Of a stretch of DNA of 64,000 nucleotides, positions 8,442 to 34,877 are shown one piece after another (positions within the stretch are counted from its first letter, which is position 1; every line of letters begins with the position of its first letter). Source of the stretch: Clostridiales bacterium (GTDB lineage Bacteria; Bacillota; Sulfobacillia; CADDZV01); NCBI GenBank assembly GCA_902812875.1, contig CADDZV010000005.1:1-64000 (forward strand), written 5' to 3'. The translations under genes were made by a program, and so were the position numbers. The notes beneath the pieces were generated by a model. The model saw only the letters and a list, made by a program, of their open reading frames with translations. It ran no database searches and had not been told where the DNA came from.

Positions 8442-8446
8442 GATGC

Positions 8447-8731: not shown

Positions 8732-8792
8732 TCTGACCACCGCCGGTTTTCAATCTTCGCAGCCCGGCCGAAAGACTCCTGCCGCGGCCGCG

Positions 8793-9398: not shown

Positions 9399-9457
9399 AG
9401 GGAAACCATCTCCGGCCTGAGGATGTGCACGAATATTGTGTCTCCATCCCTGGCCGC

Positions 9458-11986
9458 TTACCCTTGTGGCTGCACACGCGGCGTGGCCCCGAATTTTTCC
9501 GCCAGGGCAGCAAAAATGGCCCTGGAATAGCTGTTTATCTCATCGTCAGACAATGGACGGCCGTCCGCCGCCCAGGTGACGGTAAAGGCCAAGCTCCGCT
9601 GCCCAGGTGCGATGCCTTTGCCGGCGTACACATCGAACACGTAGAATCCGCGTACGTAAGGTCCGCCGGCCGCACGCGCTACCTCCTCCACGGCGTCCGC
9701 CGGCACGTTGACCGGCAGGATCACGGCCAGGTCACGTTGCACAGGTGCAAAAGGCTGCAAAGGCTGGTAGAAACGGGCAGCACCAGCGAGGGAAGTGAGC
9801 ACCGCCAAACCGAGCTCAGCCGCCATCACGCGTCCACCAATCCCGTAAGCCTCGGCCACGAGCGGATGTATCTCGCCCGCGTAGCCGAGCACCAAACCTT
9901 CGCTTGCTACCTGGGCGGCACGTCCGGGGTGCAAAAACGGCTCCCGGGCGGGCTCCCAGTGGAGCGCGGGAAGGGCAAGAACCTGTGCAATGTGTTCGAT
10001 CATCCCCTTGAGCCAGAAAAAGTCCACCGCCCGCTTATCGCCGTGCCAATTTCTTGGAGTGTAAAGCCCGGTCCCGGCAATCGCCAGCATGGTTTCTTCC
10101 ACTGCCACTCCGCGGGTCAAAAGCTCTTCGGCCGTCATGTTCACCACCCCGGCCGGACCCAACATCATGTCATGCCCGCCTTCGCGGCTGCGGTACACCC
10201 GCCCGATCTCAAAAAGCTGCAGGTCATTCTGCCGGTATCGCTGGTTATGTCCGATTACCGCCAATAGCGACGGCAAAACGGAGGTGCGCAAAAACGACTG
10301 GTCCACCGTCATGGGATTCTTGATGGCCACCGCTTGCCGCCATGGATGGTTATTTCCCAACCGCAGGCGGTCCAGGTCACGCGGGCTCAAAAATGCATAT
10401 GTGACTGCTTCCGAAAGCCCCACGGATACCAAATCGTCCCGGAGACGGCGCGCCACCCATTCCTCCGCCGGGAGCTTGCCGCGCGTCGGCTGGCCGCCCG
10501 GCAAGGTGGCAGGCAGCCGGTCGTAGCCGAAAAGCCTTGCCACCTCTTCTGCCAGGTCTGCCTCGCCCACGACGTCCGGTCGCCGCGTCGGGACGGTCAC
10601 CCGCAACGTGTCCCCGTCCGCCTCCACCCCGAAGCCATGCCGCCGCCAGAGGTCGCCCATTTCCTGCGGCTCGAGCGCAGTCCCCAAACGGGCGTTCATG
10701 CGGCTGGCCGACACCACGACCTCCCTCGGTCTTATGATCTCCGGACGCGGTAACACATCGATGCCCCCGCGCAGAAGCCGTCCCCACGTGGACATGAGGC
10801 TTCCGGCACGCATGGCGGCGCGCCAGGTACCACCTGGATCAATGCCCTTTTCAAAGCGCGACGACGCCTCCGAGCGCAGGCCTAGCCGCCGTGAGGTCGC
10901 CCGGATCAGCTCCCGGCGGAAGTAGGCAGACTCCACAAACACCCTGCGCGTAGCGGCCGTGATCTCGCTCGCTTCGCCCCCCATCACGCCGGCCAGACCA
11001 ACCGGCCCCTCGGCGTCCGCAATGACAAGATCCTCCGGCATAAGCACGCGCTCGCTGCCATCCAGTGTTACCAGCCGCTCGCCCGGCTTGGCCCGCCGTA
11101 CGCGGATCTGCCCACCCCGCACCCGGTCGAGATCAAAAGCATGCAGGGGCTGTCCAAGCTCCAGCATGACGTAGTTGGTCACGTCCACAAAGTTGTTTAT
11201 GGGCCGCATCCCGCACGCCCGCAGCCTGGCTACCATCCACCACGGTGCCGGCCCCACCTGGACGTCCTCGAGCACCACCCCCGAGTACCGGGCACAGTCC
11301 TGCGGATCTTCGATGCTTACTGTCACAGCCCCGGGCATGCTGTCCAAGAGGGCATCGGCCACGACCGCTTCCCCGACCGGCCAGTTGCGGCCAGCGCCCG
11401 TTAGGGCAGCCACTTCCCAAGCCACGCCAAGGATGGACCGGCAGTGCTGGGCATAGCTAACCGTGAGCTCGAGATCGAGCACATCGTCGTCGAAGCCCAG
11501 GACCTCCATGACCGGGCGGTCCAGGGGCGCATCGTCTGGCAACATCAGGATGCCTGCTGCCGGGTCTGGAAGGTTGCCCGGTGCCACCGTCGCCGGATCA
11601 AGCCGGCCCGCCAGCCCGAGTTCCGCCGCCGAACAAAGCATGCCGGCCGAAGCCACCCCGCCAAATGCCGCCACACCGATGGCGCGGCCGTCCGGAAGCA
11701 CCGCCCCGGGCCGGGCATATGCCACCTTTTTCCCTGTGGCGACGTTGGGGGCGCCGGAAACGACCACCTGTTGGTCCGACAGTCCCCTGACGGTCACTAT
11801 TTTCAGATGCGGGTTTTGCGGATGAGGGGATACGTCGGTAACCAAGGCCACCACCACATGATCCAGATGGATCGCCCGGTCGATCTCTGCCACCTCAAGC
11901 CCCGCCATGGTGAGCCTTTCGGCCAGTTCATCCACATCCCAGTCGAAATCCACCATTTCCTTGAGCCAGCGATAAGGAACGCGCAT
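9458..11986 (-). CDS. pheT: Phenylalanine--tRNA ligase beta subunit
   Basis: The large subunit of the alpha2-beta2 phenylalanyl-tRNA synthetase, which provides tRNA binding and editing. At 842 residues it is full length. It begins 'MRVPYRWLKEMVDFDWDVD', then has the EMAP-like tRNA-binding domain (about 40-150), the B3/B4 editing domain, B5, the class II-like core and a C-terminal FDX-ACB anticodon-binding domain (last 95 residues). AGGAGG lies before the ATG and overlaps the pheS stop region, so translation is coupled with pheS 11 bases upstream. Expression is under the Phe T-box before pheS. Confidence 0.97.
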   Translation of the reverse strand: MRVPYRWLKEMVDFDWDVDELAERLTMAGLEVAEIDRAIHLDHVVVALVTDVSPHPQNPHLKIVTVRGLSDQQVVVSGAPNVATGKKVAYARPGAVLPDGRAIGVAAFGGVASAGMLCSAAELGLAGRLDPATVAPGNLPDPAAGILMLPDDAPLDRPVMEVLGFDDDVLDLELTVSYAQHCRSILGVAWEVAALTGAGRNWPVGEAVVADALLDSMPGAVTVSIEDPQDCARYSGVVLEDVQVGPAPWWMVARLRACGMRPINNFVDVTNYVMLELGQPLHAFDLDRVRGGQIRVRRAKPGERLVTLDGSERVLMPEDLVIADAEGPVGLAGVMGGEASEITAATRRVFVESAYFRRELIRATSRRLGLRSEASSRFEKGIDPGGTWRAAMRAGSLMSTWGRLLRGGIDVLPRPEIIRPREVVVSASRMNARLGTALEPQEMGDLWRRHGFGVEADGDTLRVTVPTRRPDVVGEADLAEEVARLFGYDRLPATLPGGQPTRGKLPAEEWVARRLRDDLVSVGLSEAVTYAFLSPRDLDRLRLGNNHPWRQAVAIKNPMTVDQSFLRTSVLPSLLAVIGHNQRYRQNDLQLFEIGRVYRSREGGHDMMLGPAGVVNMTAEELLTRGVAVEETMLAIAGTGLYTPRNWHGDKRAVDFFWLKGMIEHIAQVLALPALHWEPAREPFLHPGRAAQVASEGLVLGYAGEIHPLVAEAYGIGGRVMAAELGLAVLTSLAGAARFYQPLQPFAPVQRDLAVILPVNVPADAVEEVARAAGGPYVRGFYVFDVYAGKGIAPGQRSLAFTVTWAADGRPLSDDEINSYSRAIFAALAEKFGATPRVQPQG

Positions 11987-21575: not shown

Positions 21576-22403
21576 CTATGTCCGCTCCCTTCCCACCCCA
21601 AGGTTCTGAAGCTGCCAGAACGCCTCGTAGAGTACCACCCCGGTGGCCACTGCCAGGTTCAGAGAATCGCTCCTTCCCACCATGGGAATGCTCACCATGA
21701 CATCGCAGAGAGCCTGCTCCTGCGCCGACAGCCCCTCGCGTTCGCTCCCCATGAAAATGACCACAGGCTCCCGGTAGGAAACGTTCCGGTAGTTCGTCGG
21801 TGCTGCCCCGGAGGTGCCCACGAACGTGTAGCCGTACCGGTTTTTCCACGCTGCCAGCTCTTCTACCGTCAGGCGCACAAGCCGTTGCGAAAATATGGCC
21901 CCCATACTGGCACGCACACAAGCCGGATCGTAGGGGTCGGTCGTAGGGCCTACCAGGATGACGCCCGCAAACCCGACCGCATCGCTCGTGCGAAGGACGG
22001 TCCCGAGGTTGCCCGGGTCCTGTACCCCTGAAAGCGCCACCCACCGGCGCCGGTTTGACCGCGCGGCCGCATCGGGAGTGTCCCAACGCTGCCTGATCAC
22101 GGCCGCCAGTCCCTGCGGCCCGTCCTTGTCGGAAATGCTTTGAAAAACCTCTTTGGTTACCTCCAGGACGGGAACACCCATGCGACGCTGGTCCTCACAC
22201 AAACTGCGGGCAAATCGACTTTCCAAAAGGTCGGGGGCGATGACCAGGGCCTCCACTGGTGCACGTACCTGCACCGCTTCCGTCACGATGCGGATGCCCT
22301 CCGCAAAGAAAAGGCCTGTCTTCTCCCGCTGCTTTCGCTGGCGGAGGCTGCGGATGCGCTTTATCGCCGGATTGGCCGGGCTCGAGATCGGCTCGGACTT
22401 CAC
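21576..22403 (-). CDS. TrmH/SpoU-family RNA methyltransferase (second paralogue)
   Basis: A SPOUT 2'-O-methyltransferase similar in layout to the protein at 14892-15722. An N-terminal substrate-binding domain ('[20 protein letters not shown]') is followed by '[15 protein letters not shown]', '[11 protein letters not shown]' and '[18 protein letters not shown]'. The 275 residues are normal. The start GTG at 22403 overlaps the alcohol dehydrogenase stop (GTGA), so the two are translationally coupled. The target nucleotide cannot be told from sequence alone. Confidence 0.9.
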
Positions 22404-23500
22404 GGAAGTTTGACCACCGCACTGCCCTGGATTTCGCCTTTTTTCAAACGCCCAAGCACGTCCGGCAGTTTGCCCACGCTGTAAATCTCGACGTGCGGGT
22501 CAATGCCGGCTACGTCGGCCCAGTACATCCATTCCCAGGCGTCCTGTCGCGTGGCGTTGGCTACCGAGCGGAGCACCCGCTCGCCGTACAGCAACTCGTA
22601 GGGGAAGGCCGGAATACCATCGAGGTGAACCGCATTCACCGCCAGCGTCCCACCGGGAGCCAAGACGCGTAAGGCGGCGGGGATCACCGCCCCGGTGGGG
22701 GCAAATGTGACGGCCGCTTCGAGCAACACCGGCGGCTCCTCCCCCGTCGCCCCCGCCCAGCTGGCTCCCAGTGCCAGGGCCAGCCGCCGGTGCTCAGGAT
22801 TGCGCGTGAACACATAAACTGCCGTTTCCCAGTGACGTGCCACCTGCAGGGCCAAGTGTGCCGATGCCCCGAAGCCAAACAGGCCCAGCCTGATGGGGCG
22901 GTCCGGCGTCACCCCGGCCAACCGGAGTGAGCGGTAACCGATGATGCCAGCGCACAACAACGGAGCCGCATGCTCATCGTCGAAGCGCGCGGGTATGGGC
23001 ACGAGGAAGTCAACTGGCGCGACCATGTATTCGGCATACCCGCCATCGTGGAAGAAACCAGTAAATTGGGGGTTTTCGCACAGGTTTTCCCGGCCCGTCA
23101 GGCAGTATTGGCAGCGTCCGCAGCTCCGGTAAAGCCAGGGTACGCCTACTCGTACGCCCGGTTGCACTCGCAAGCCCCGCTCGTCGCCGCCCCCGGAGGC
23201 GGCAATCAGGCGACTGGCCAAGTCTTTTGACACCCCGGGCGGGACCGGAACGAACGCGCCCTTAGGTTCCGGCACCCCCAATTGCACCACGTGGCCGATC
23301 ACCTGGTGCCCCGGAATCACGCTTTCATGCGGCAGCGTAAGCTCGCCCTCCGTGATGTGAAGGTCCGTGTGGCACACTCCGCAGGCGCTTACTTTCAGCA
23401 ACGCCTCGCCCGGGCCCGGCGTGGGCACCGCCACGTCTTCCTGCCAATGAAGAACCGGCGCCACTTTCGCGTCCGAACGCTTTACCACCCATGCCCGCAT
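22400..23500 (-). CDS. Zinc-dependent alcohol dehydrogenase (GroES-like)
   Basis: A medium-chain dehydrogenase expected to interconvert an alcohol and aldehyde with NAD(P). The N-terminal zinc site is 'GVCHTDLH' plus 'PGHQVIG', and the structural zinc cysteines are 'CGRCQYCLTGRENLC'. The Rossmann domain has 'GLFGFGASAHLALQ', and the sequence resembles the AdhA/AdhP group. About 30 residues ('PKGAFVPVPPGVSKDLASRL' and after) are inserted between the 'GHVVQLG' strand and 'GVRVGVPWL', where relatives have a short loop. The ATG at 23500 is the homologue-like start; an in-frame codon exists at 23536. It is coupled to the downstream trmH-like gene. Confidence 0.9.
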   Translation of the reverse strand: MRAWVVKRSDAKVAPVLHWQEDVAVPTPGPGEALLKVSACGVCHTDLHITEGELTLPHESVIPGHQVIGHVVQLGVPEPKGAFVPVPPGVSKDLASRLIAASGGGDERGLRVQPGVRVGVPWLYRSCGRCQYCLTGRENLCENPQFTGFFHDGGYAEYMVAPVDFLVPIPARFDDEHAAPLLCAGIIGYRSLRLAGVTPDRPIRLGLFGFGASAHLALQVARHWETAVYVFTRNPEHRRLALALGASWAGATGEEPPVLLEAAVTFAPTGAVIPAALRVLAPGGTLAVNAVHLDGIPAFPYELLYGERVLRSVANATRQDAWEWMYWADVAGIDPHVEIYSVGKLPDVLGRLKKGEIQGSAVVKLP

Positions 23501-23763
23501 GGCTTTGTCCGACCGTACCGGTGGCTCCACCGCCACCCACCTCCGCTCGTCCAGCCGGTCTTTCTATCGACCGGCTTTTTCCCTGATCATACGTCAGGGC
23601 TGCTCCCCGCTCCTACCGGGAAGGTAACGAAGACTGGCCGGCGAATTTACATCCCGACTGCTGCCCAGGCAAAGCGTTGCCAACCTTTTGTGGCCAGTTA
23701 CGGCCACCATACCGACGCCGTTTGCCGGCAGCGGTCTTCGTTTTTGCACCGCGGATGCTGTGG
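23501..23763. other. Intergenic region with an unassigned terminator-like hairpin
   Basis: No gene can be supported here. AGCCGGTC (23554-23561) pairs with GACCGGCT (23570-23577) and is followed by five T on the plus strand, but no plus-strand gene lies upstream. On the minus strand the hairpin would sit in the 5' leader of the alcohol dehydrogenase, without a T run. Confidence 0.5.
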
Positions 23764-24759
23764 CTATAGATCTCTCACCGCAGGGAAATACGTCCGCCGG
23801 TTCTCCAGCACGAAGCCCGCCAAACGGTGGCCGAGGGCCACCGCTTCATCAACGGTGAAGCCGTGGCATAGGCCATAGAGAAAACCGGCATTTAAAAGAT
23901 CGCCGGCACCCGTGGTGTCTTCCACGCGGCGGGGATGCGTGGGGATGTGGCGCCTGCCCTGACGATCGACGACCAGTGCGCCACCGGCACCCATCTTAAC
24001 CACCACGGTCCCCCCGCATAACTCCCGCAAGGCTTCCGCCGCCGAATGCGGATCGCTGGTGCCGGTCAGGGCCTCTGCTTCCAGTTCGTTCGGCAAAAAG
24101 ATGTCGGTATCGGCCAGTACTGCCCGCCACCCGGCGACGGTTGCGGGCTGCCAGTTGTCCGTCGCCCAGCCTGTGTCGAGCGCGGTCCGCAGCCCCTGCA
24201 CGTGCATCTGGCGGAACAGTGCCCCCACGCTGGCCGGCGGGAGCCCTGGCAAAAGGCAGGCTCCTGTAAGAAGAAAACAGCCTGGCCCCGACGGCTTATG
24301 AACCCATGTGCTTGCCCAACGCTCATCCGCAGCTGCAAGCGCACCGAGATCGGTGACAAAGGCCCTTTCGCCTGATGGATGCACCAGCGCCAGTCCGACC
24401 GAAGTGGGAAGCTGGGGTACAAGGCTGATCCCGCTTGTATCCACGCCCGCCGCCCGCAAATGGTTCACCAATGCGCGTCCGTGCGTGTCTGTGCCCACTA
24501 CACTGAAGACAGTGATGGATAGGCCCGGCGAAGAGAGCACCAAACCGGTGGCAGCTGTACTCTCAAGATCTTCCAGCCTCAGTCCGGACGCGCTGGCCAG
24601 CCCAGCCAGTGCCAAGGCAGTGTTGCCAGCGGCACCGCCCGGCCGGAAGGTGCTTTTGGCAACGATGGCCTCGGTTCCCCACGCCGGCATCGAAGGGAGC
24701 GGGCCCATACTGATATCGAGGCCCAGGTTGCCAAGGAGGTAAATCCGGCCGCCGCTCAC
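23764..24759 (-). CDS. PfkB-family carbohydrate kinase
   Basis: A ribokinase-family sugar kinase, last gene of the ROK-SIS-ABC operon. The N-terminal 'RPGGAAGNTALALAG' and the C-terminal 'DTTGAGDLLNAGFLYG' with the catalytic Asp are clear. The protein is 331 residues. The start GTG at 24759 overlaps the permease stop (GTGA). By position it matches FrlD, the fructosamine kinase that follows two permeases in the B. subtilis frl operon, but the substrate cannot be read from the sequence. It presumably phosphorylates the imported compound before the SIS enzyme acts. Confidence 0.88.
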   Translation of the reverse strand: MSGGRIYLLGNLGLDISMGPLPSMPAWGTEAIVAKSTFRPGGAAGNTALALAGLASASGLRLEDLESTAATGLVLSSPGLSITVFSVVGTDTHGRALVNHLRAAGVDTSGISLVPQLPTSVGLALVHPSGERAFVTDLGALAAADERWASTWVHKPSGPGCFLLTGACLLPGLPPASVGALFRQMHVQGLRTALDTGWATDNWQPATVAGWRAVLADTDIFLPNELEAEALTGTSDPHSAAEALRELCGGTVVVKMGAGGALVVDRQGRRHIPTHPRRVEDTTGAGDLLNAGFLYGLCHGFTVDEAVALGHRLAGFVLENRRTYFPAVRDL

Positions 24760-25610
24760 CCTTTCACCGCCCCCGCCACCAGGCCCTGGATGATGTACCG
24801 CTGCAACAAAAGGGCGATTAGCACCGGCGGCAGGGCCGCCAACACCCCGCCCGCCGCGACCAGGCCGTAGTCGACCATGTGCTGCCCGCTGAATTCGGCG
24901 ATGGCCACCGGAATCGTCTTGGCGGCCAGGCTGGAGGTAAGGATCATGGCGTAGAAGAACTCGTCCCACGCCATCAACACGGCAAAGATCACTGTGGTCA
25001 CAAGCCCAGGTAACGACAAGGGCAGGGCGATGCGCCAGAAGGTGTCAAACCGGCTGCAACCATCCACGAAAGCGGCTTCTTCGATCTCAGTGGGAATGCT
25101 GAGAAAATAGCCACGCATGATCCAGATCACATAGGGAGCAATGAAAGAAGTGTAGACGAGCACAAGCCCAGAGACGGTGTCGCGCAAGTGCAGGCTGCCC
25201 AGGATAATGTAGAGGGCGACGATCAAGGCGATGGGAGGCAGCATGTATGTCGCCAGGAAGAAGAAGGTCGCCACGCGTCCCCACCTGACGCCGATCCTTG
25301 CGAGAGCGTAGGCCGCCGGCACCCCAACGGCGAGCGAAAGCACCGTCGCCCCAGCCGCCAACCGCAAACTGTTCCACAGTGCGATGCGGAAGGTGTATGC
25401 AGCAGAATTCATGTCAGTCGTAGTCAAAATAGTCAAATACCGCTGCAACGTGGCATGCTGCGGCCACCAGTGCAAAGGCCGCGACAGAAGGTCAGCATTG
25501 CTCGCGACGCTGGAGATAAATAGCCACACAAATGGTGCAAGCACAAACACGGCCGTCAGTAAGGCCCCGCCGTATAGGGCCACAAGCCTCAGTCCATTTC
25601 CCTTTTTCAT
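24756..25610 (-). CDS. ABC sugar transporter permease (MalG/UgpE type)
   Basis: An inner-membrane subunit of a carbohydrate importer of the CUT1 class. Six membrane segments can be seen, from 'LYGGALLTAVFVLAPFVWLF' near the start onward. The EAA loop that contacts the ATPase is 'EEAAFVDGCSRFDTFWRI'. AAGGTGAG lies six bases before the ATG at 25610. No ATP-binding gene is present, so it likely shares an MsmX-type ATPase encoded elsewhere. Confidence 0.93.
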   Translation of the reverse strand: MKKGNGLRLVALYGGALLTAVFVLAPFVWLFISSVASNADLLSRPLHWWPQHATLQRYLTILTTTDMNSAAYTFRIALWNSLRLAAGATVLSLAVGVPAAYALARIGVRWGRVATFFFLATYMLPPIALIVALYIILGSLHLRDTVSGLVLVYTSFIAPYVIWIMRGYFLSIPTEIEEAAFVDGCSRFDTFWRIALPLSLPGLVTTVIFAVLMAWDEFFYAMILTSSLAAKTIPVAIAEFSGQHMVDYGLVAAGGVLAALPPVLIALLLQRYIIQGLVAGAVKG

Positions 25611-25628
25611 GAAGTGCTCACCTTGCCA

Positions 25629-26531
25629 TCAAGAATAGACGTCCTCGCGGATGAGACGGAAATATACCAGCGACAAAAGTACGATGAACATCGCGGTCAG
25701 GTAGGCCAAGGCTGCACCCCTGCCGAACTGCAGGCTGCTGAACGCCTGGGTATAGGTGTAGTAGGCGATCGTCTGGGTACCGTTGGCTGGGCCGCCCCGC
25801 GTCATGATGAAGATGATGTCGAACACTTTGAACGCCTCTATCGTGCGGAGCACTAGCGAAACCAGGAGGCCTGGCCGCAACCATGGTAACGTGACATATA
25901 CGAAACGGCCGATTGCTCCCGCTCCGTCGATAGATGCCGCCTCGTACAGCTCCCCGGGAATCGTCTGCAAGTTGGCCAAAAGGAGCAGTGCGACAAGGGG
26001 GGTCATCTTCCACACATCTGCCACGATCACCATGTTCATGGCCATCCAAGGCGATCCCAGCCAGTCGTGATAATGACTGATCAGGCCGAGCTGTGTGAGC
26101 AGGGCATTCAGAGCGCCATAGTCCGCGTTGTATATCCACCGCCACATCATGCCGTTCACGATGGTGGGCAGCGCCCACGGGATCAAAATCAAGGCCCGCA
26201 GCACGCCCTGCCCCCGGAACCGCTGGTTAAGTAGTAGCGCCATCAAAAGCCCCAAGATCAGCTCGAGGCCGGTGGAGACCAGCGTGAAATAGAATGTGCG
26301 CCCCATGGCCTGCCAAAAAGTGGGGTCAGACAACGCGCTCAGGTAGTTTTGCAACCCGACAAAAGGCCGCCCGGGTATGGTCAAGGTATAGCGGTGAAAG
26401 CTGGTCCAAAACTGCTCCGCGAGGGGAATAAAGATCACGCCAAATGTGACCAGTAGGGCTGGGGCAAGGAACACTAGCGCCAGGATGAGTTCCTCGCGCC
26501 GGCCACTCCACCGCTTCTGCGTCGAGCTCAT
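25629..26531 (-). CDS. ABC sugar transporter permease (MalF/UgpA type)
   Basis: Partner permease of the same importer. Hydrophobic segments begin at 'LILALVFLAPALLVTFGVIF' (about 14-36). The EAA loop reads 'YEAASIDGAGAIGRFVYVTL'. It ends in a short cytosolic tail. GGGGAG lies before the ATG at 26531. A GC-rich stem-loop separates it from the binding-protein gene upstream, a usual arrangement for unequal expression. Confidence 0.93.
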   Translation of the reverse strand: MSSTQKRWSGRREELILALVFLAPALLVTFGVIFIPLAEQFWTSFHRYTLTIPGRPFVGLQNYLSALSDPTFWQAMGRTFYFTLVSTGLELILGLLMALLLNQRFRGQGVLRALILIPWALPTIVNGMMWRWIYNADYGALNALLTQLGLISHYHDWLGSPWMAMNMVIVADVWKMTPLVALLLLANLQTIPGELYEAASIDGAGAIGRFVYVTLPWLRPGLLVSLVLRTIEAFKVFDIIFIMTRGGPANGTQTIAYYTYTQAFSSLQFGRGAALAYLTAMFIVLLSLVYFRLIREDVYS

Positions 26532-26555
26532 TTGCCGCTCCCCCTGACACAGAAG

Positions 26556-26588
26556 GCCCGGGAGCCGGGTGACCGCCTGCTCCCGGGC
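26556..26588 (-). other. Intercistronic stem-loop between binding-protein and permease genes
   Basis: GCCCGGGAGC (26556-26565) and GCTCCCGGGC (26579-26588) form a perfect 10-bp stem with a 13-base loop. There is no T run, so it is more likely an RNA stability element or partial terminator that lets the lipoprotein be made in excess. Confidence 0.7.
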
Positions 26589-26595
26589 TCTGCTC

Positions 26596-27870
26596 TCACT
26601 TTTGCCCGCTGGCCAGTTGCTTTACCTGGTCCACCAGTGGCTTCATCGCGTCCTCGGGCGATTCCTTGCGCAGAAGAGCGTTCTGTAGCGCCACCTGGAG
26701 ATCGGTGGAGAACTGGCTATACCACGGCACGAACTCTGGCCGTCCCCTCATGCTGGCGAACTGCTCTTTTGCCACGCTGACCAGTTCCGGAGAGGCGTTG
26801 AGGTCGGGGGCATTGAGAGCATCGGTCCAGATGGGCAACGAGTCAGAGGCATAAGGCTTCTGGTTTTCTTCGCTCGTCAAGAACTCGATCAGCTTCCAGG
26901 CTGCGTCAGGATACTTGGTGCTCTTGGTGATAGCCAAGCCCATCGAGCCACTCACGCCAATGGATTCCTTGGCCGCAGGCGTTGGGGCTATGCCTACGTC
27001 ACCTGCCACCTGGGACTGTTTGGGATCATTGGCCAGGCCGTACATGTACGTCCAGTTCAAGGCGAAAGCAGCCTTGCCTTGCTGGAAGATCTGGCGGACG
27101 TCCTCCTCCAGGTAGGTGGTCGAGTTGGGGTTCGAAAGCCCGTCCTTCAAGGTGCCCACCATCCACTTCAGGGCGTCCATGGCCCCGTCGGTCTGGAACT
27201 GGGGGCTGCCATCAGGCCCAAGGATGTTGCCGCCAAAAGAGTACACAAGTTGGGCGTAATCACAGACCACGGCTTCGGCCTGGCCCCAGCTCCAGACGAT
27301 GGGGTATTCGACGATTTTCTTCTGCTTGATAACCTTGGCCATGTTCAGCAGTTCGTCCCACGTCTTTGGCGGGTCTTTGAAGCCGGCCTCGGCCAGCATC
27401 TTCTTGTTGTAATACAGGAACTTGGTGTCCAGGATCCACGGAACACCGTAATACTTGTCCCCCACCTTCATGATGTTGAGCACTGCCGGATTGATGCCAC
27501 TTTGCATCTGTGGCGTGATGCGGTTCGTCACGTCCTGAATGAAGTTGGCGGCCGCAAATTCCGCTGGCCAGATCTCGTCGACCAGTACCACGTCATATTG
27601 ACCGGACCCCGACGCCTGATCGGTCACGATCTTGTCGTGCAGCGACTCGTACGGTACGAATGTCACCTGCACTTTGATGCCCGGGTTTTGTTCCATGAAC
27701 TTCTGTATCATGGCATTGACGTGCTCGTCACTGTATGCGGCTTGTTTCATGGTCAGAAATTGCAGTGTAATCGGTCCGGTAGTCTGGTTCTTGGCCGTTT
27801 GGCCTGAGCCGCATCCCGCTGCGAGCGCGATCACCAGGACCACTGCCAACCCCAACATGATCCGCTTCAT
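26596..27870 (-). CDS. Extracellular sugar-binding lipoprotein of the ABC importer
   Basis: A substrate-binding protein of family 1 (maltose-binding type). The signal peptide ends in the lipobox 'ALAAGC' (Cys about residue 20), so it is lipid-anchored outside the membrane. Typical parts are 'GQYDVVLVDEIWPAEFAAAN', 'VPWILDTKFLYYNKKML' and 'AAWKLIEFLTSEENQKPY'. The 424 residues are normal. AGGAGG lies eight bases before the ATG. The ligand is not evident; the operon context suggests a glycosamine or Amadori-type compound. Confidence 0.93.
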   Translation of the reverse strand: MKRIMLGLAVVLVIALAAGCGSGQTAKNQTTGPITLQFLTMKQAAYSDEHVNAMIQKFMEQNPGIKVQVTFVPYESLHDKIVTDQASGSGQYDVVLVDEIWPAEFAAANFIQDVTNRITPQMQSGINPAVLNIMKVGDKYYGVPWILDTKFLYYNKKMLAEAGFKDPPKTWDELLNMAKVIKQKKIVEYPIVWSWGQAEAVVCDYAQLVYSFGGNILGPDGSPQFQTDGAMDALKWMVGTLKDGLSNPNSTTYLEEDVRQIFQQGKAAFALNWTYMYGLANDPKQSQVAGDVGIAPTPAAKESIGVSGSMGLAITKSTKYPDAAWKLIEFLTSEENQKPYASDSLPIWTDALNAPDLNASPELVSVAKEQFASMRGRPEFVPWYSQFSTDLQVALQNALLRKESPEDAMKPLVDQVKQLASGQK

Positions 27871-27983
27871 CCTTCGGCCCTCCTTCCCGAAGTCAGGAAT
27901 CCGAAACCAATACCTCGCCCCGTCCTACCATTGCCGATGCCAGTGTTCGAACCCTGTTTCCCCCTTTTTCCTTCACCTCCAGT

Positions 27984-29030
27984 TCACGTTTCGGTACGTA
28001 TCACGCTGGGCGTATGGCGAAACTCGCCCGGCACAAATCCCCGGGCTTCCGCCCAGCCGAGGCTCATCCATTGAAAAGGCACTACCTGCACGAGGGGCAG
28101 CACGGCTTCGTCCACGGCAGGGACAGGAAGAACCTGTGCCCCGGTAGCCGCCAGTGACGGCGTCACGGACACCGGGGCCACTGCGATCACCGTCGCATGG
28201 GTAGCGATGAGCTCGCTCACCATTGCCCGGCCGAGATCGAAAGCCGGCGCCGATTCCGGCAGCACCACGGCAGCCAAGAAACCTGGTTCGGCCACTTCGA
28301 TGACGCCGTGGCGGAATTCCCCGCCGTCTTCCGCCCAGGCGGGCATCTTGGCGACCTCGTTGAAGAGCAAGGCCCCCGCCCACGCCGCACTAAGTGACTC
28401 CCCGCGGCCGAGCACCACGGCGGCCCGCACGTCCCTGAGGGCGTGCCCGCGGTCTCGCCACCAAGGCCCCTGTTGGTTAGCCGCCTCCACCGCGCCGGCG
28501 GTCTGTTCGACCCATCCACGCCACAACGCCGTGGGTTGACCCGTCAAATGGATCCCGAGATACAGAAGAGCCAGCATGCTCGCCCCGTAGGTTTTGATCG
28601 CCACACCGTGGTCAGGCACTACCCCAGTCACCAAGGCCGCGCGTGCCGTGGCGGCCAGCGTACTGTCGCTGGTGTTGGTGACAGCCACCACCGTCACCTT
28701 CCGGGCCGCCAGCTCACTGGCGAGTTTTACCACTTCCGCGCTCTCACCGGATTGCGAAACCGCCACGACGAGGTCACCCGGTGAAAGCCGACCGCGGTCG
28801 TAGTACAGCAGGTTGGAACTAAGCTCGACAACCACCGGCAGGCCCAACGAGGCCAGAACGTAAGACGCTCCCAGGGCGGCGAAATACGAACTTCCCATTC
28901 CCGTGAGGACAAGACGGTTCCAATGACCGTGTCCCAAAGCTCCTGCCAGTTCGCGCACCCAAACCGGCTCCAGGGCAACTAGGTGCCGGAAGGCTTCCCC
29001 TTGCAATCGGATGTCTTGCTCCATAGACAT
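27984..29030 (-). CDS. SIS-domain sugar isomerase/deglycase (GlmS/FrlB-like)
   Basis: A protein with two sugar-isomerase (SIS) domains, related to the isomerase half of GlmS and to deglycases such as FrlB. The first SIS domain shows 'LTGMGSSYFAALGASYVL' and 'VAVSQSGESAEVVKL'; the second has 'AAVVLGRGESLSAAWAGAL' and 'DGGEFRHGVIE'. The probable start is the ATG at 29030, 11 bases after GGGAG; ATGs at 29048 and 29024 are alternatives. It follows the ROK regulator directly and precedes the transporter. It may split or isomerise an aminosugar phosphate. Confidence 0.85.
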   Translation of the reverse strand: MSMEQDIRLQGEAFRHLVALEPVWVRELAGALGHGHWNRLVLTGMGSSYFAALGASYVLASLGLPVVVELSSNLLYYDRGRLSPGDLVVAVSQSGESAEVVKLASELAARKVTVVAVTNTSDSTLAATARAALVTGVVPDHGVAIKTYGASMLALLYLGIHLTGQPTALWRGWVEQTAGAVEAANQQGPWWRDRGHALRDVRAAVVLGRGESLSAAWAGALLFNEVAKMPAWAEDGGEFRHGVIEVAEPGFLAAVVLPESAPAFDLGRAMVSELIATHATVIAVAPVSVTPSLAATGAQVLPVPAVDEAVLPLVQVVPFQWMSLGWAEARGFVPGEFRHTPSVIRTET

Positions 29031-29050
29031 GGCTCTGTACGCTCCCATCG

Positions 29051-30241
29051 CTACGCCACAAACGTTACGGAGCTCCGCCGGCGAATCATGACCCCGTAAC
29101 AAGCCCCGAGCAGAGTGCTCTTTTCCGCCAAATTGGCCGCGATGACCGGCGCCGGATACGGCGCATATTGGTCAATCAACTCCTGGACCACGGGCAGGAT
29201 CAGGTCGGACACGCGTAATATCTCGCCCCCCAGGACCACCAGTTCAGGGTTCAAAAGACAAACCAGGTTACAAGCAACGCTCCCAATCACCCTGGCGGCA
29301 CCGTTAATCAGTTCGATGGCTCGCCGGTCATTGGCCAAAGCCGCTTCCACAAAGGCGTCGACCTTGCCTTCCCCCGGCGAGAAGCCAGCCCCAGCCCACT
29401 GTTCGGCGAGTACCGTAAGGGCCACGCGGCGCTCCAGCAAGCCGAACCCGCGTACCGCCCCGTGCGACGGCGCGGGTTGCGTGGAAGCGACGTCACTTTC
29501 CATCAGCCAATGGCCGATCTCGCCGGCCGCCCCGTCCCTGCCGCGATACAGATGGCCGTCCACCAGCATCGCGGCACCAAGGCCGGAACCAACCGTGATG
29601 GCAAGTGCATTCTCGCGTCCCACCGCAGCCCCACGCCAATATTCACCGAGTAGGAGGGCATCAACATCGTTGAACACAGTCACAGGAAACCCAAGCAGCG
29701 AGCCCAGCCGTTCACCCACCGTCATGTCTTCCCACTGCAAGGCAGGCGCCCACACCACGCGTTCGCCGCCCGGATCGGGCGTTCCGGGCACGACGAGGCC
29801 AGTCCCCACCAGATTTTCCGACGCTATGCCACTTCTGTGCACAAGCTCTTCTACCAAGGCGGTGACTTGGTCTAGAAGAGGTTGCCCAAGCCCAGTTACC
29901 TTTGCCGCTTCAGTAAAAATCACGTCGCCGGACAGGTCGAGTACCCCACCGAGGAGGCGGTAAGGGGCAATGTCCACAACGACGACAAACCCGGCCTTCG
30001 GATTGAACGACAAAAGTATGGGCTGACGGCCGCCCGACGAGTTTCCGACACCCACCTCCTGGACTAACCCCTCTTCAATCAAGGCAGCAACCGTCCTGGT
30101 AACGGCCGGGGCGCTGAGCCCTGTCCGTGCCGCAATCTCAGCCCGCGAGATGGAACCTTCCCTGCGGATAAGGTCCAGGATCAGCGTCCGATTTATCTGC
30201 CTCATCAGCTCCGGCTTTCCCGGGATCGATGGCCGCGGCAA
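29051..30241 (-). CDS. ROK-family transcriptional regulator
   Basis: A sugar-responsive repressor of the NagC/XylR type. The N-terminal winged helix ('RREGSISRAEIAARTGLSA' with 'VTRTVAALIEEGLV') is followed by the ROK sugar-kinase-like fold with 'GVGNSSGGRQPILL', 'AITVGSGLGAAMLVDG', 'GAAGEIGHW' and 'LNPELVVLGG'. The classical zinc-binding cysteine cluster of ROK proteins is not evident after the 'GEIGH' motif. The TTG at 30241 has GGGGAGGG six bases upstream; an earlier GTG at 30259 has none. It is the first gene of the operon, and an inverted repeat at 30274-30296 is a likely autoregulatory operator. Confidence 0.9.
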   Translation of the reverse strand: MPRPSIPGKPELMRQINRTLILDLIRREGSISRAEIAARTGLSAPAVTRTVAALIEEGLVQEVGVGNSSGGRQPILLSFNPKAGFVVVVDIAPYRLLGGVLDLSGDVIFTEAAKVTGLGQPLLDQVTALVEELVHRSGIASENLVGTGLVVPGTPDPGGERVVWAPALQWEDMTVGERLGSLLGFPVTVFNDVDALLLGEYWRGAAVGRENALAITVGSGLGAAMLVDGHLYRGRDGAAGEIGHWLMESDVASTQPAPSHGAVRGFGLLERRVALTVLAEQWAGAGFSPGEGKVDAFVEAALANDRRAIELINGAARVIGSVACNLVCLLNPELVVLGGEILRVSDLILPVVQELIDQYAPYPAPVIAANLAEKSTLLGACYGVMIRRRSSVTFVA

Positions 30242-30273
30242 AAACGTCCCTCCCCGCACCCGTAGAGTCGCGC

Positions 30274-30296
30274 AACTTACTTTTGTGAATTAAGTT
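30274..30296. promoter_or_regulatory. Inverted repeat, candidate ROK-repressor operator
   Basis: AACTTA and TAAGTT are perfect 6-bp arms separated by 11 bases, 33 bases before the ROK start. The A/T-rich arms stand out in a GC-rich region. ROK repressors such as XylR bind comparable TTAGTTT/AAACTAA-type palindromes. Confidence 0.5.
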
Positions 30297-30334
30297 CGTG
30301 CTTGCGACAGGAACTCCTGCCGCCGGCCTCCGCG

Positions 30335-30364
30335 GCATGCCCCTCGTTTTACCGGGGTATACTA
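30335..30364 (+). promoter_or_regulatory. Sigma-F/sigma-G-like promoter before ytxC
   Basis: GCATG (30335-30339), a 15-base spacer and GGGTATACTA (30355-30364) match the forespore sigma-F pattern GYATA-N15-GGnnAnAnTW in all but one defined base. No sigma-A -35 box fits the same -10 region. Confidence 0.5.
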
Positions 30365-30400
30365 GGCACGCACCAAAGACAGCCGAAGGAGTGTCTGGCT

Positions 30401-31324
30401 CTGACGCCCGCTCAGGCTACCTCACACCCAATTGCCATCGGCACTGCACAGTTCGTGGACGCCATCCGCAAAGGTATCAAGGATAGCCTTGAGCCGCTCG
30501 CCGCCCAGGGATACCCGGTAAAGATCGAAGAAACCAGGCGCGGCGGTCTAACGTTCTTCTCCTGCACGTTTGGCCCTGACAGCGCGATGGTGCCGAATAC
30601 CGACCACTGGCGGCGGGAAGGACTGCGCCGACTGGCCACGGCCATCGCAGACGTGCTTGTGGATCAATGGGAGAATCATCTGCTGACGCGGTTGGTGCAA
30701 AACCAGTACAGCTACTTTTCGCCCCACGAACAGGCCGAAATCGTGCAGGACGCCACCCAGCTCCTTGACCACGAGCCGGCGAGCATCCCCACGGGCATCC
30801 GCAAACACGAACGCAAAGCGCGCATCCTCCAGGAGATCCTCGCATATTTCGAACAAAACCAGGAGCTTGTCTTGGAAGGCTTTCTCGTTTTCCGTCTGCG
30901 CGACTATGTAGAAGGACTTGTCCAGGTAGTCGACGACGCCGTCGACGAATACCTTCTGGAGCGTGAATACAGGGAATTCATCCGGCTTTTGAAATTCTTC
31001 GTGCAAGCCCAGGAACCCAAGGTGGAAAAAATCCACGCCATCATGCTCCCCGACGGGGGCTTCCAGCTCGTGGACGAAGAAAACAACCGGCTGGACGAAG
31101 ATTTCTTGCGCGATGTGGTGTTGGGCATCCGGGATATACAAAAGATCAGGGCGGAAGACCTGTTGCTCTCCGCCCTGATCACGCTGGCACCCCGCTTTGT
31201 AGTTTTGCACGCCATGCCTGGTGCCGCACTGGACAACGATACCGCCGGCACCCTGCGGGAGGTGTTCGGGCCGCAGCTGATCGTGTGCCATGGCTGTTCG
31301 CTATGCGATCCGAACCACCGCTGA
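30401..31324 (+). CDS. ytxC: YtxC-family sporulation protein
   Basis: A protein of unknown biochemical role that belongs to a family restricted to endospore formers. The diagnostic central block is 'EGFLVFRLRDYVEGL' followed by 'VDEYLLEREYREFIRLLKFF'. The C-terminal part has 'DLLLSALITLAPRFVVLH' and ends with 'CHGCSLCD'. The start is a problem: AAGGAG (30386-30391) is followed at good spacing only by CTG codons (30395 and 30401) in this frame, so a CTG start is likely. A TTG at 30302 is in frame but lies upstream of the candidate promoter. A forespore-type promoter at 30335-30364 fits the family's role. Confidence 0.82.
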   Translation: MTPAQATSHPIAIGTAQFVDAIRKGIKDSLEPLAAQGYPVKIEETRRGGLTFFSCTFGPDSAMVPNTDHWRREGLRRLATAIADVLVDQWENHLLTRLVQNQYSYFSPHEQAEIVQDATQLLDHEPASIPTGIRKHERKARILQEILAYFEQNQELVLEGFLVFRLRDYVEGLVQVVDDAVDEYLLEREYREFIRLLKFFVQAQEPKVEKIHAIMLPDGGFQLVDEENNRLDEDFLRDVVLGIRDIQKIRAEDLLLSALITLAPRFVVLHAMPGAALDNDTAGTLREVFGPQLIVCHGCSLCDPNHR

Positions 31325-31350: not shown

Positions 31351-32550
31351 CTAGATACGTACCCCCAGGTCGTCGAAAATCCGCCGCGATACAACCAGGC
31401 GCTGGATTTGGCCGGTGCCTTCGAAGATGTCGTAGACTTTGATGTCGCGGAACCACTTCTCCAGATACTCGTCGTGCAAAAGCCCGGCGCCAGCCGCCAC
31501 GTCTATGGCCATGGAACAGACCTCCATCCCGATCTGCCCAGCGTAGGCCTTGGACATGGACGCCTCTTTGGTGTTTGGTACGCGGGCATCAGCCATCCAC
31601 GCGGCCTTCCACACAAGCAGCCGCGCGGCATCGATTTTGCGGGCCATGGTGGCAAGGGCTTCCACGATGGCCGCGTAGCGCGGCGACGGCCGCCCCAGCA
31701 TGAGGTTCTGCCGGGCGATCTCGCGGGCCCGCTCATACGCAGCCCGGGCAATACCCACAGCCATAGCGGCCACGGTTGGCCGCGAAGAATCGAACGTCTG
31801 CATGGCTACCTTGAAGCCCTCACGCTGCAGATACCGCTCCTCGCCGCCGAGAAGGTTCTCCACCGGCACCACGCAGTTGTCAAACACGAGTTCCGCGGTC
31901 TCGGAGGCCCGCAGGCCCATCTTGTCCATGATCCGGCCCACGCGGAAGCCGGGCGTCCCTTTTTCCACCACAAAGGCGCGATGCCCGGCCCGGCCGAGGT
32001 TGCGGTCGACCGTGGCGAACACCACGTTCCAGGAAGCTTTGGCGCCGTTGGTGATGAAGGTCTTGGTGCCATTCAGGATGTAGTGGTCACCCTCTTTGCG
32101 GGCCGTGGTGCGGATGCCGGCCACGTCCGAGCCGGCCTCCGGTTCGGTCAGGGCGTAGGCCCCCCACCGTAGCTCCGGGCCGTTAAAGATGGAGAGAAAA
32201 CGTTCTTTTTGTTCAGGCGTTCCCATAAACCGCACTGGCGGCCCTCCGAGTCCGGCCCCGGGCAGGTTTAGCACAAACGAGGCATCGCCCCAGGCGAGCT
32301 CCTCGGCCGCAATCACGCCGATGCGGTTGCCTTGGCGTTCACCCTGGCCGCCCTCGACACCGCCGGGGCCGCCCCCAGAGGGCACGCTTTCCATGCTCAG
32401 GCCCATGGCTTTGGCCTGCTGCAAAAGCGGGAGCGGGGTGTCGTGGTTCTTGTCTGCCTCCAAGGACGCCGGCCGCACCTGCTGCTCGGCAAACCAGTGC
32501 AGAAACTCCTTCAGCTGCCGCTGCTGCGGAGAAAGTTCGAATTCGATCAT
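31351..32550 (-). CDS. Acyl-CoA dehydrogenase (catalytic subunit type)
   Basis: A flavoprotein that introduces the 2,3-double bond in acyl-CoA and passes electrons to ETF. The 399 residues show the usual three parts, with 'AYALTEPEAGSDVAGIRT' and 'GTKTFITNG' in the flavin-binding middle and 'YDIFEGTGQIQRLVV' near the end, where the Glu (about 377) aligns with the catalytic base of medium-chain enzymes. A Gly-rich insertion ('SGGGPGGVEGGQGE') lies near residue 60. The ATG at 32550 has GGGGGTGA upstream and overlaps the stop of the preceding acyl-CoA dehydrogenase gene by four bases. Confidence 0.93.
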   Translation of the reverse strand: MIEFELSPQQRQLKEFLHWFAEQQVRPASLEADKNHDTPLPLLQQAKAMGLSMESVPSGGGPGGVEGGQGERQGNRIGVIAAEELAWGDASFVLNLPGAGLGGPPVRFMGTPEQKERFLSIFNGPELRWGAYALTEPEAGSDVAGIRTTARKEGDHYILNGTKTFITNGAKASWNVVFATVDRNLGRAGHRAFVVEKGTPGFRVGRIMDKMGLRASETAELVFDNCVVPVENLLGGEERYLQREGFKVAMQTFDSSRPTVAAMAVGIARAAYERAREIARQNLMLGRPSPRYAAIVEALATMARKIDAARLLVWKAAWMADARVPNTKEASMSKAYAGQIGMEVCSMAIDVAAGAGLLHDEYLEKWFRDIKVYDIFEGTGQIQRLVVSRRIFDDLGVRI

Positions 32551-33704
32551 GACTTCACCCCCGCCGACGCCAGTCCGGCCGCCGCCATACCGGCTGCCCA
32601 AGTCAGCCGGTCGCGGTGCCCGCCCAAAAGCGTGAGGGCACGCACGTCCCGCATCCATTTCTCCACCGGGTGGTCCTGCACGTAGCCGTGGCCACCCAAC
32701 AGCTGCACCGCCCCGTTGGTGGCGAACAACGCCGCCTCATAGGCCTGCAGCACCGCCGCCGGCAAAAGGTACGATACGTCCTGCCCCTGGTCCAGCGACC
32801 AGGCTGCTTGCCACAAGAGTCCCCGTGCTGCTTCCAGCTGGGTCGCCATGTCCGCCAGGTAGAAGGAAACGCCTTGGAAGGCGGCAATCAGCTGGCCGAA
32901 CGCTTTCCGGGTGGCGGCATACGAAGAGGCATACTCGACAGCGGCCCGTGCCACCCCCAGGGCTTCGGCAGCCAGAACCAAGTCCGCCCTCCCCTGGACA
33001 AGCTCCAGCTGTGCTGGGGTCAGGCCTCCGGCCACCAGGGCATCGCCGGGTATCAGAACCCCATCCAGATCTAGACTGTGGAAAGCCGCCGCCTCCAGGC
33101 CCAGTGTGCGGTGACGGGCGCCGAGCTTCAGACCATCTGTACCGGCAGCCACTACGAACAGGCTCATGGCGCTCTCCCCGTCCTGCGGAGTGCGCGCCGC
33201 CACCAGATACTGGTCCGCTCCTTCGGCCCCAAGCACGATGCGCTTGTGCCCGTGCAGGCGATAGCTGTCGCCATCCGGTACCGCGGTGGTTTCTACCAAT
33301 TCGCCGCTGTAGCCGGGCCCGGGCTCACCCACTGCCACCGCCGCATGGGCGAGACCCTGTGCATACCGCCCCAGCAGGCGTTCTTGGGTTTCCGCGGCGG
33401 CCGTGGCCATGACCAGGTACCCAAAAAGACCCGGCCCGGGCATGGCGTGCAGCATCCCGGCGTCGCCCCAACCAAGCTCCTCCTGCACAATGGCAAGCGA
33501 AACGTTGCCGAGCCCGGCCCCACCGGCATTTTCCGGCAACGCCAGCACGTCCAGCCCGAGGTCGTGATACTCATTTTGCAGCGCCGCCGGTACGGCGCCC
33601 GCCCGCTCACAGTCGCGCGCCGCTGGGCGCAACCGCGTGTCGGCGAAATCGTGTGCCATGTCACGCAAGCCCTTGTCGTCATCCGAAAGAGCGAAAGAGA
33701 TCAC
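32547..33704 (-). CDS. Acyl-CoA dehydrogenase-like protein without the usual catalytic Glu
   Basis: A second member of the family, about 385 residues, more divergent. The N-terminal helical domain ('DMAHDFADTRLRPAARDCE') and C-terminal 'AFGQLIAAFQGVSFYLADMA' and 'QLLGGHGYVQDHPVEKWMRD' are clear. At the catalytic-base position, where its neighbour has 'FEGTGQIQR', this protein reads 'LLGGHRDRL', with no Glu. The flavin region is also poorly conserved ('AVAVGEPGPGYSGELV'). It may be the non-catalytic half of a heteromeric enzyme with its neighbour. The GTG at 33704 has AGGGGG at good spacing; the TTG at 33710 is an alternative. Confidence 0.88.
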   Translation of the reverse strand: MISFALSDDDKGLRDMAHDFADTRLRPAARDCERAGAVPAALQNEYHDLGLDVLALPENAGGAGLGNVSLAIVQEELGWGDAGMLHAMPGPGLFGYLVMATAAAETQERLLGRYAQGLAHAAVAVGEPGPGYSGELVETTAVPDGDSYRLHGHKRIVLGAEGADQYLVAARTPQDGESAMSLFVVAAGTDGLKLGARHRTLGLEAAAFHSLDLDGVLIPGDALVAGGLTPAQLELVQGRADLVLAAEALGVARAAVEYASSYAATRKAFGQLIAAFQGVSFYLADMATQLEAARGLLWQAAWSLDQGQDVSYLLPAAVLQAYEAALFATNGAVQLLGGHGYVQDHPVEKWMRDVRALTLLGGHRDRLTWAAGMAAAGLASAGVKS

Positions 33705-33725
33705 GGCCAAACCCCCTTCGCGGGT

Positions 33726-34877
33726 TCACACCCGCTCAATTATGGTGCCAACCGCCATTCCAAGGCCGATGCACAGCATGGCAAGCCCGTACCTGCCCTG
33801 CCGCCGCTCAAGCTCGTTCAAAAGCGTGGCCACCAGCCGTACACCGGTCGCTCCCAGCGGATGTCCCAGGGCAATCGCACCTCCGTTTGGGTTCACGCGG
33901 CTCATGTCGGGCTTGATTTCTTTCTTCCAGGCCAACACCACGGAGGCGAAGGCCTCGTTGATTTCGATCACGTCGATGTCCTCGAGCTTGAGACCGGCCT
34001 TCTTGAGGATTTTGCCTGTGAGCGGAATCGGGCCGGTCAGCATGATCGTGGGATCGACGCCGACCAGGGCCATGGTCACCACCCGTGCCCGCGGCTGCAA
34101 CCCAAGCTCTTGCGCCTTCTTCTCCGATGCCAGTAGCACGGCGGCGGCACCGTCCGTGATCTGGCTGGAGTTGCCAGCCGTCACGAGCCCGTTTGGCAAG
34201 AACGACGGCTTCAGCGTGGCCATCTTCTCAAGGGAGGTGTCCCGGCGGATGGTCTCATCTTTGGTCATCAGCGTAGTGGACCCGTCCGGGGCCGGCACTG
34301 CCACGGGGACGATCTCGTGGTCGAATTTGCCTGCGTCCTGGGCAGCAGCGGCACGGCGGTGGCTCTCCAGCGAAAACTCGTCGAGCTCCGTGCGGGTAAG
34401 GTGCCACCGCTCGGCGATCATCTCGGCCGAGATGCCCTGTGGCACCAGGTTATACCGGCCCGTGACGCTGGTGCTGAAATTCCCGCCGTCCGAACCCATG
34501 GGCACCCGGCTCATGCTCTCGACGCCGCCGCCAATTGCGAGGTCGATCATTCCAGACATGATCCCCTGGGCAGCAAAATTCATGGCCTGCAGGCCCGACC
34601 CGCACATGCGGTTGATTTGCACACCGGGCACCTCGACCGGAAACCCTGCCCCGAGTACCGCCATACGCCCGATGTTGAACCCCTGTTCGCCGATGGGGGT
34701 CACGCAGCCCATGATCACGTCCTCAAGCTCGGCGGGATCGATGTGGTTGCGTTCCACCAGCCCCTTCAGCACGGTGATCGCCAAGTCCTGCGGATGCACG
34801 ACGCTGAGCGTCCCGCCCCGCCGTCCCATGGGCGTCCGCACGGCATCAGCTATGAACGCCTCGCCCACTTTCCTCAC
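33726..34877 (-). CDS. Thiolase (acetyl-CoA acetyltransferase/3-ketoacyl-CoA thiolase)
   Basis: Performs the last, chain-shortening step of beta-oxidation, or its reverse. The nucleophile Cys is in 'NRMCGSGLQAMNFAAQG' (near residue 92), the catalytic His in 'GGAIALGHPLGATGVRL', and the second Cys in 'AMLCIGLGMAVGTII'; 'NEAFASVV' is also present. The 383 residues are normal. It follows the SCP2 gene by six bases, the same pair of modules that is fused in eukaryotic SCPx. GTG at 34877 is the start. Confidence 0.94.
   Translation of the reverse strand: MRKVGEAFIADAVRTPMGRRGGTLSVVHPQDLAITVLKGLVERNHIDPAELEDVIMGCVTPIGEQGFNIGRMAVLGAGFPVEVPGVQINRMCGSGLQAMNFAAQGIMSGMIDLAIGGGVESMSRVPMGSDGGNFSTSVTGRYNLVPQGISAEMIAERWHLTRTELDEFSLESHRRAAAAQDAGKFDHEIVPVAVPAPDGSTTLMTKDETIRRDTSLEKMATLKPSFLPNGLVTAGNSSQITDGAAAVLLASEKKAQELGLQPRARVVTMALVGVDPTIMLTGPIPLTGKILKKAGLKLEDIDVIEINEAFASVVLAWKKEIKPDMSRVNPNGGAIALGHPLGATGVRLVATLLNELERRQGRYGLAMLCIGLGMAVGTIIERV

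Follow-up and report, generated by a model that had tools for sequence, protein, structure and literature searches.

The operon described here lies on the minus strand of a stretch of 64,000 nucleotides (positions 1 to 64,000 of contig CADDZV010000005.1, assembly GCA_902812875.1), hereafter the window, from a Clostridiales bacterium of the class Sulfobacillia. Six genes stand in one close-packed row and encode a ROK-family regulator, a SIS enzyme, the binding lipoprotein and two permeases of an ATP-binding cassette (ABC) importer, and a PfkB-family kinase. We hold, with modest confidence, that this operon serves the utilisation of a hexosamine (glucosamine or galactosamine) and is of the type found in Sinorhizobium meliloti, as recognised by the kinship of its transporter and kinase. 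The initial annotation had likened it to the frl (fructosamine) operon of Bacillus subtilis. Gene types, conserved gene order, phylogeny, and the conservation and rarity of a putative operator site were computed directly.

Relationship to the S. meliloti operon

The closest studied system found is the S. meliloti operon SMb21216–SMb21221 with its ROK gene. The window binding protein was 51–54% identical to binding proteins of rhizobial megaplasmids, among the best 40 of 1691 records. In the S. meliloti locus (L111), a divergent ROK gene is followed by genes for the binding protein, two permeases, an "aminotransferase", a carbohydrate kinase, and UgpC. The locus maps to approximately 778.7–786.4 kb of pSymB of S. 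meliloti 1021. It was identified as SMb21216–SMb21221 because its gap between the binding protein and permease 1 (783494–783740) contains the interval 783541–783640, which an excerpt of PMC2780559 gives for the SMb21220/SMb21221 gap. From the gene order, the SIS protein is SMb21218, the PfkB kinase SMb21217, and UgpC SMb21216. The L111 "aminotransferase" could be aligned with the SIS proteins and has the conserved Glu, His, and Lys, and proteins so annotated in Sinorhizobium and Phyllobacterium match the SIS rows. Such rhizobial proteins were seen near PfkB kinases and a related importer at L086 13908–14912 and L087 13772–14776.

Identity between the window and S. meliloti proteins was 53% for the binding protein (SMb21221), 51% for permease 1 (SMb21220), 48% for permease 2 (SMb21219), 31% for the PfkB kinase (SMb21217), 28% for the ROK protein, and 32% over 153 columns only for the SIS enzyme. 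The trees placed the window and S. meliloti binding proteins in a 10-row group (support 96/96) and a permease of each in a 12-row group (88/94), with the frl rows outside both. The two kinases fell in a 14-row group (94/94, just under the star mark of the tool). The two SIS proteins shared a 17-row group (97/92) without frl, GlmS, NagB-II, or AgaS rows; they are not sisters, and long branches meet there.

A passage of PMC4961836 shows the same split between transporter and metabolism: SMb21216 and SMb21219–SMb21221 are predicted there to form a D-galactosamine transporter, and SMb21217 and SMb21218 to help metabolise D-galactosamine. An excerpt of PMC11378808 describes SM_b21217 as specifically important on glucosamine as a nitrogen source and argues from mutant fitness that it is a glucosamine kinase. 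The excerpt of PMC9007349 is about NagX and not this operon, and S. meliloti is unnamed in it; that of PMC9599572 holds annotation tables and a transcriptome remark.

The window operon has the gene kinds of the S. meliloti operon (ROK, binding protein, two permeases, SIS, and PfkB). It differs in that its ROK gene heads the operon, whereas that of S. meliloti is divergent. The window kinase and SMb21217 share the motifs LDTGW..D.W and GTEAIV. DTGW was present in 9 of 30 kinase rows, in none of the five FrlD-group rows, and in none of seven other E. coli kinases, and the N-terminal GTE was absent from all five FrlD-group rows. Rows L043 and L044 were removed from the second PfkB tree.

SIS enzyme

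The SIS enzyme is most like the isomerase domain of GlmS. In that domain, E488 and H504 are the catalytic Glu and His of the isomerase site, and K603 is the C-terminal Schiff-base lysine. E488 and H504 were kept in all 28 SIS rows, the window included. The window enzyme shares these two residues, two Pfam SIS matches, and its nearest folds with the GlmS isomerase domain, NagB-II, GlmD, and AgaS, and the SQSG start of its phosphate loop with GlmS and NagB-II. It differs from them in having no glutaminase domain and in scoring under the curated NCBIfam cut-offs, none of which was reached (glmS 127 bits, NagB-II 59, and GlmD 57, against 381–418, 430, and 580, respectively). K603 is replaced in it, as in E. 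coli AgaS (T). Lysine stands at this position in 19 of the 28 rows, and SMb21218, NagB-II, GlmS, and most Amadori-type rows keep it. The nine rows without it are four of the window clade and L011 (L), E. coli AgaS, E. coli FrlB (G), a Rhizobium frl row (R), and the second SIS protein of L041, SIS2 (P). Row L076 was excluded from the SIS trees. Rows trimmed from longer open frames were the L010 PfkB and SIS, the L042 binding protein, the L041 SIS2, and two GlmS proteins reduced to their isomerase parts.

The AlphaFold model of the SIS enzyme (5 sequences) had a mean predicted local distance difference test score of 80, and residues 342–354, including the K603 position, scored below 50. The folds nearest to it were GFAT/GlmS isomerase domains (Z 37–40, 18–23% identity). 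Next were the glucosamine-6-phosphate deaminases 7kqa (Z 34, 27%) and 2cb0 (Z 34, 22%) and the E. coli AgaS-type 3c3j (Z 34), followed by NagB-II (Z ~31), FrlB 8glr (Z 29, 18%), and FraB (Z ~27). The NagB model had no match in the genome of the window (G000, 96% complete) and one match each in the genomes G037, G059, G130, and G032. On the hexosamine reading, deamination of the amino-sugar phosphate in G000 would fall to the window SIS enzyme.

Relatives in other genomes

All six genes recur in identical order in G130 (L010) and G032 (L042; ROK gene cut by the contig end), both genomes of the class. In a third, G037 (L009), the first five genes (ROK to permease 2) are present, with a MalK-type ATPase in the place of the PfkB kinase and a divergent ROK kinase. 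Because the same six genes recur in G130 and G032, the gene order exceeds chance. The order proposed in the initial annotation, with ROK at the head and then SIS, lipoprotein, permease, permease, and PfkB, is borne out by the open reading frames (ORFs), the Pfam types, and this conservation, and related operons, for which it had recommended a search, were found in these three genomes.

Among 154 genomes of the class, own genome included, the SIS query matched 3 (E ≤ 1e-40) and the PfkB query 15 (E ≤ 1e-25); in a phylum sample, the SIS query matched 6 of 398 (E ≤ 1e-30, own included). Gene contexts were viewed for 6 of the 17 PfkB matches besides the window and G130, and for 4 of the 5 phylum SIS matches other than that of the window. 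A ROK gene and a kinase adjoin SIS in three of these four (L107, L108, and L109), with an importer in L107 and L109 only; in the fourth (G431), the ROK gene, kinase, and importer are all absent beside SIS. SIS relatives of Shinella, Klebsiella, and an Acidobacteriales genome adjoin ROK-family kinase-like proteins.

Some neighbours of the relatives appear to point to amino sugars. G059 (L041) carries genes for GntR, a binding protein, permeases, PfkB, SIS, PfkB, an AgaS-like SIS protein, a class II aldolase, and a 1-phosphofructokinase/LacC-like kinase. In three Deinococcus plasmids (L085, L088, and L090), a PIG-L deacetylase adjoins the PfkB relative; the best model for the one scored was the mycothiol deacetylase MshB, under its cut-off. 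The Deinococcus context is weakened, since the importers there fall outside the window clade in the trees. The three plasmids carry a lyase-family gene, the importer, the PIG-L deacetylase, and the related PfkB; the lyase-family gene is argininosuccinate-lyase-like in L085 and L090, both of which have an upstream ROK gene.

Hexosamine or another sugar

Several observations weigh against the hexosamine reading, the Deinococcus importers just mentioned among them. For the SIS enzyme, the GlmS K603 is replaced throughout the window clade (S, G, S, and P in G000, G037, G130, and G032); the window protein comes from another branch than SMb21218, is not its sister, and lacks the lysine that SMb21218 keeps. 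The kinase is just 31% identical to SM_b21217, and related kinases of Deinococcus (3 rows), Sinorhizobium (2), and Phyllobacterium (1) have no DTGW. The gene order differs from that of S. meliloti, with SIS first and the kinase last, and the window operon contains no ATPase gene. PfkB matches without an importer of the window kind occur in G048 and G100, two of the six contexts viewed, and a second copy in G059 (L040) has a close PfkB followed by a DeoC-like ORF (by eye). The kinases of L107, L108, and L109 belong to another branch than the window PfkB; that of L108, the only one scored, matches Pfam Khk with 192 bits. In G037, the PfkB query found nothing at E ≤ 1e-25, and a ROK kinase adjoins the operon. 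Because of G037 and the three phylum relatives, the substrate may vary from genome to genome. The solved chains nearest in sequence to the binding lipoprotein are named for disaccharides (MalE3 and trehalose/maltose-binding protein); other near ones are 5ci5 and the sulfoquinovosyl glycerol-binding protein SmoF.

These points leave room for a different sugar, a possibility to which we give clearly less weight than to the hexosamines. Such a sugar could be, for instance, an aldose, a ketose, or a hexosamine bearing a modification, and the SIS enzyme would only isomerise its phosphate, without deamination. The loss of the lysine from the window SIS and related rows, the varied kinases beside related SIS genes (PfkB, Khk-type, and ROK), the PfkB relative before a DeoC-like ORF, and the named ligands of the solved binding proteins would all suit such a sugar. 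The transporter, which shares roughly half of its residues with the hexosamine transporter of S. meliloti, argues for a hexosamine instead, as does the related importer of G059, which is accompanied by the AgaS-like SIS, the aldolase, and the LacC-like kinase.

Comparison with frl operons

The order SIS, binding protein, permease, permease, and PfkB is also that of the gene types of the frl operon, in which we take frlB to be the SIS gene and frlD the PfkB gene. An frl-type operon would imply that PfkB phosphorylates an Amadori product, that SIS releases an amino acid from it, leaving glucose 6-phosphate, and that ROK replaces FrlR. The B. subtilis operon is named frlBONMD-frlP in an excerpt of PMC12632257. 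E. coli supplied FrlB and FrlD as frl references, and a Salmonella plasmid its annotated FraB and kinase. Added to these were a Pediococcus protein named FrlB; SIS/kinase pairs from an Agrobacterium Ti plasmid, from an E. faecium plasmid, and from a Rhizobium plasmid that also has an ABC importer; and three frl-type loci of the same phylum (L100, L102, and L104). L102 (G456), assigned as Bacillus-type frl from its gene order, stood for B. subtilis in the SIS and permease 1 comparisons; its binding protein was too short and was excluded. The L102 locus (7931–9577) has a binding-protein-like ORF of 126 aa and a FrlD-like ORF of 116 aa, a second permease was not found in it, and it is apparently decayed.

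The trees separated the window proteins from the frl proteins. Eight frl SIS rows formed one clade (100/99), and their union with the rows of G000, G037, and G130 was rejected (approximately unbiased test, p 2.7e-8; p 2e-6 for the window rows in an earlier set with six frl rows), so the SIS enzyme falls outside the FrlB/FraB deglycase clade. Seven FrlD-type kinases formed one clade (97/90), whose union with four window-type rows was rejected (p 1.8e-5; p 5e-4 in an earlier set with five FrlD rows). Union with the frl rows was also rejected for permease 1 (three rows, p 6.5e-4) and for the binding protein (two rows, p 0.022, with long branches meeting in the tree). At E ≤ 0.001, no FrlB model was among the NCBIfam matches of the window SIS. 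Its phosphate loop, SQSGES, is that of GlmS-like enzymes, whereas the frl-type loops are SHSGNT, SDYGKT, or SYSGTT. The regulator is a ROK protein by Pfam and not the GntR-type FrlR, and no ATPase gene is adjacent. Both kinds of operon occur in the genome G324 of the same phylum, the frl type at L100 and the relative of the window operon at L107, which makes them separate systems.

An frl-type function is favoured by the order of gene types and by the presence of the Glu and His, which none of the 28 SIS rows lacks (E. coli FrlB and FraB are among them); the trees, the NCBIfam result, the loop, and the coexistence in G324 make it very improbable. Judged by these comparisons, the likeness to frl is one of gene types and order, not of kinship. 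Of the pathway proposed in the initial annotation, import and phosphorylation of an aminosugar-like compound agree with the nearest studied operon, that of S. meliloti; the trees and G324 leave the Amadori part without support. Clustering with families of other substrates, which it had named as evidence against its view, was found for the transporter and, at 31% identity, in a loose form for the kinase; these families are not those of tagatose or myo-inositol pathways.

Operon layout, regulator, and putative operator

The coordinates of the genes and the putative operator are given in Table 1. Spacing within the operon ranges from a 4-base overlap to 113 bases, and the GTG start of PfkB overlaps the stop of permease 2. 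Other possible starts of the ROK gene are 30241 (an in-frame TTG, the end used in the initial annotation) and 30205. The ROK protein was set aside as a candidate pathway kinase because it carries a winged helix-turn-helix.

Table 1. Features of the operon and its upstream region in the window.
Feature	Position	Strand	Remarks
ROK-family transcriptional regulator	29051..30259	-	402 aa; PF00480 118 bits and winged helix-turn-helix at residues 24–67 (Pfam)
SIS enzyme, GlmS-isomerase/NagB-II type	27984..29048	-	354 aa; Pfam SIS 102 bits; alternative start 29030
Sugar-binding lipoprotein of ABC importer	26596..27870	-	Pfam SBP_bac_1 189 bits
ABC permease 1	25629..26531	-	Pfam BPD_transp_1 (57 and 72 bits for the two permeases)
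ABC permease 2	24756..25610	-	Pfam BPD_transp_1 (57 and 72 bits for the two permeases)
PfkB-family kinase, proposed hexosamine kinase	23764..24759	-	331 aa; Pfam PfkB 155 bits
Putative ROK operator, imperfect inverted repeat	30275..30295	-	ACTTAATTCACAAAAGTAAGT, 21 bp; pattern ACTTNNTTNACNNAAGTAAGT

The pattern ACTTNNTTNACNNAAGTAAGT was drawn from the sites of G000, G037, and G130 and matches all three exactly by construction. Each of these genomes has one such site and no other at ≤2 mismatches, and the reversed control pattern gave 0. The chance expectation in the window is a mean of 0.10 at ≤3 mismatches. The site precedes the ROK gene in G000 and G037; in the window, this upstream region is shared with a divergent ytxC-like sporulation gene (30302–31324, plus strand; TIGR02834 193 bits, cut-off 207), which suggests a lineage within Bacillota. 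In G130, the longest ROK ORF takes in the site with its first codons, and the true ROK start there is probably later. The site is absent from G059 and G032; the absence from G032 says little because the upstream end of its operon lies off the contig. We infer that ROK controls the operon through this 21-bp site, with binding and the sense of regulation both predicted.

A perfect inverted repeat, TAAGTCAAGACAATTGACTTA, lies between the S. meliloti ROK and binding-protein genes (L111 7690–7925) and is a candidate operator. It is as long as the window repeat but differs from it in sequence, its own arms are of 7 bases, and it is a lead only.

Neither the sigma-70 promoter scan (0 found against 2.0 in shuffles) nor the terminator scan (8 against 7.5) was informative. 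An alcohol dehydrogenase gene (22400–23536) was rejected as part of the operon: 227 bases separate it from PfkB, and the next downstream gene in G130 is on the opposite strand (by eye). Between PfkB and this gene, a hairpin of 8 pairs with a T tail (23553–23576, plus strand) is oriented against the operon direction. On the minus strand at 31351–34877, two overlapping ORFs resemble acyl-CoA dehydrogenases and one resembles thiolase (by eye).

Proposed pathway and its meaning

The substrate and the reaction of each enzyme are predicted from kinship. In the proposed hexosamine pathway, the lipoprotein would capture the free amino sugar, and the two permeases would import it with a borrowed ATPase of the MsmX/UgpC type. 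Such borrowing is proposed by analogy: according to an excerpt of PMC12632257, FrlONM share the MsmX ATPase in B. subtilis. The best G000 relative of the G037 operon ATPase is C56:294–1370 (60% identical), which adjoins ORFs resembling a maltodextrin operon (by eye). PfkB would then phosphorylate the amino sugar at O-6, and the SIS enzyme would deaminate or isomerise the 6-phosphate to a ketose 6-phosphate that enters glycolysis, with the release of ammonia. ROK would regulate its own operon from the 21-bp operator, most likely as a repressor freed by the sugar or sugar phosphate.

A more speculative reading, which we consider less likely than not, is that a hexosamine module extends across phyla, with a conserved importer and swappable kinases (PfkB, Khk-type, and ROK). 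The SIS enzymes of the class, having lost the GlmS lysine, might then catalyse a reaction of their own on the amino-sugar phosphate, different from those of GlmS, NagB-II, and FrlB.

The analysis corrects a tempting analogy with frl, in which gene order is shared without kinship. It would link the lineage of the window to a hexosamine pathway that is known through fitness data on rhizobia, and from it come a substrate that can be tested, a signature for the kinase, and a site for the regulator.

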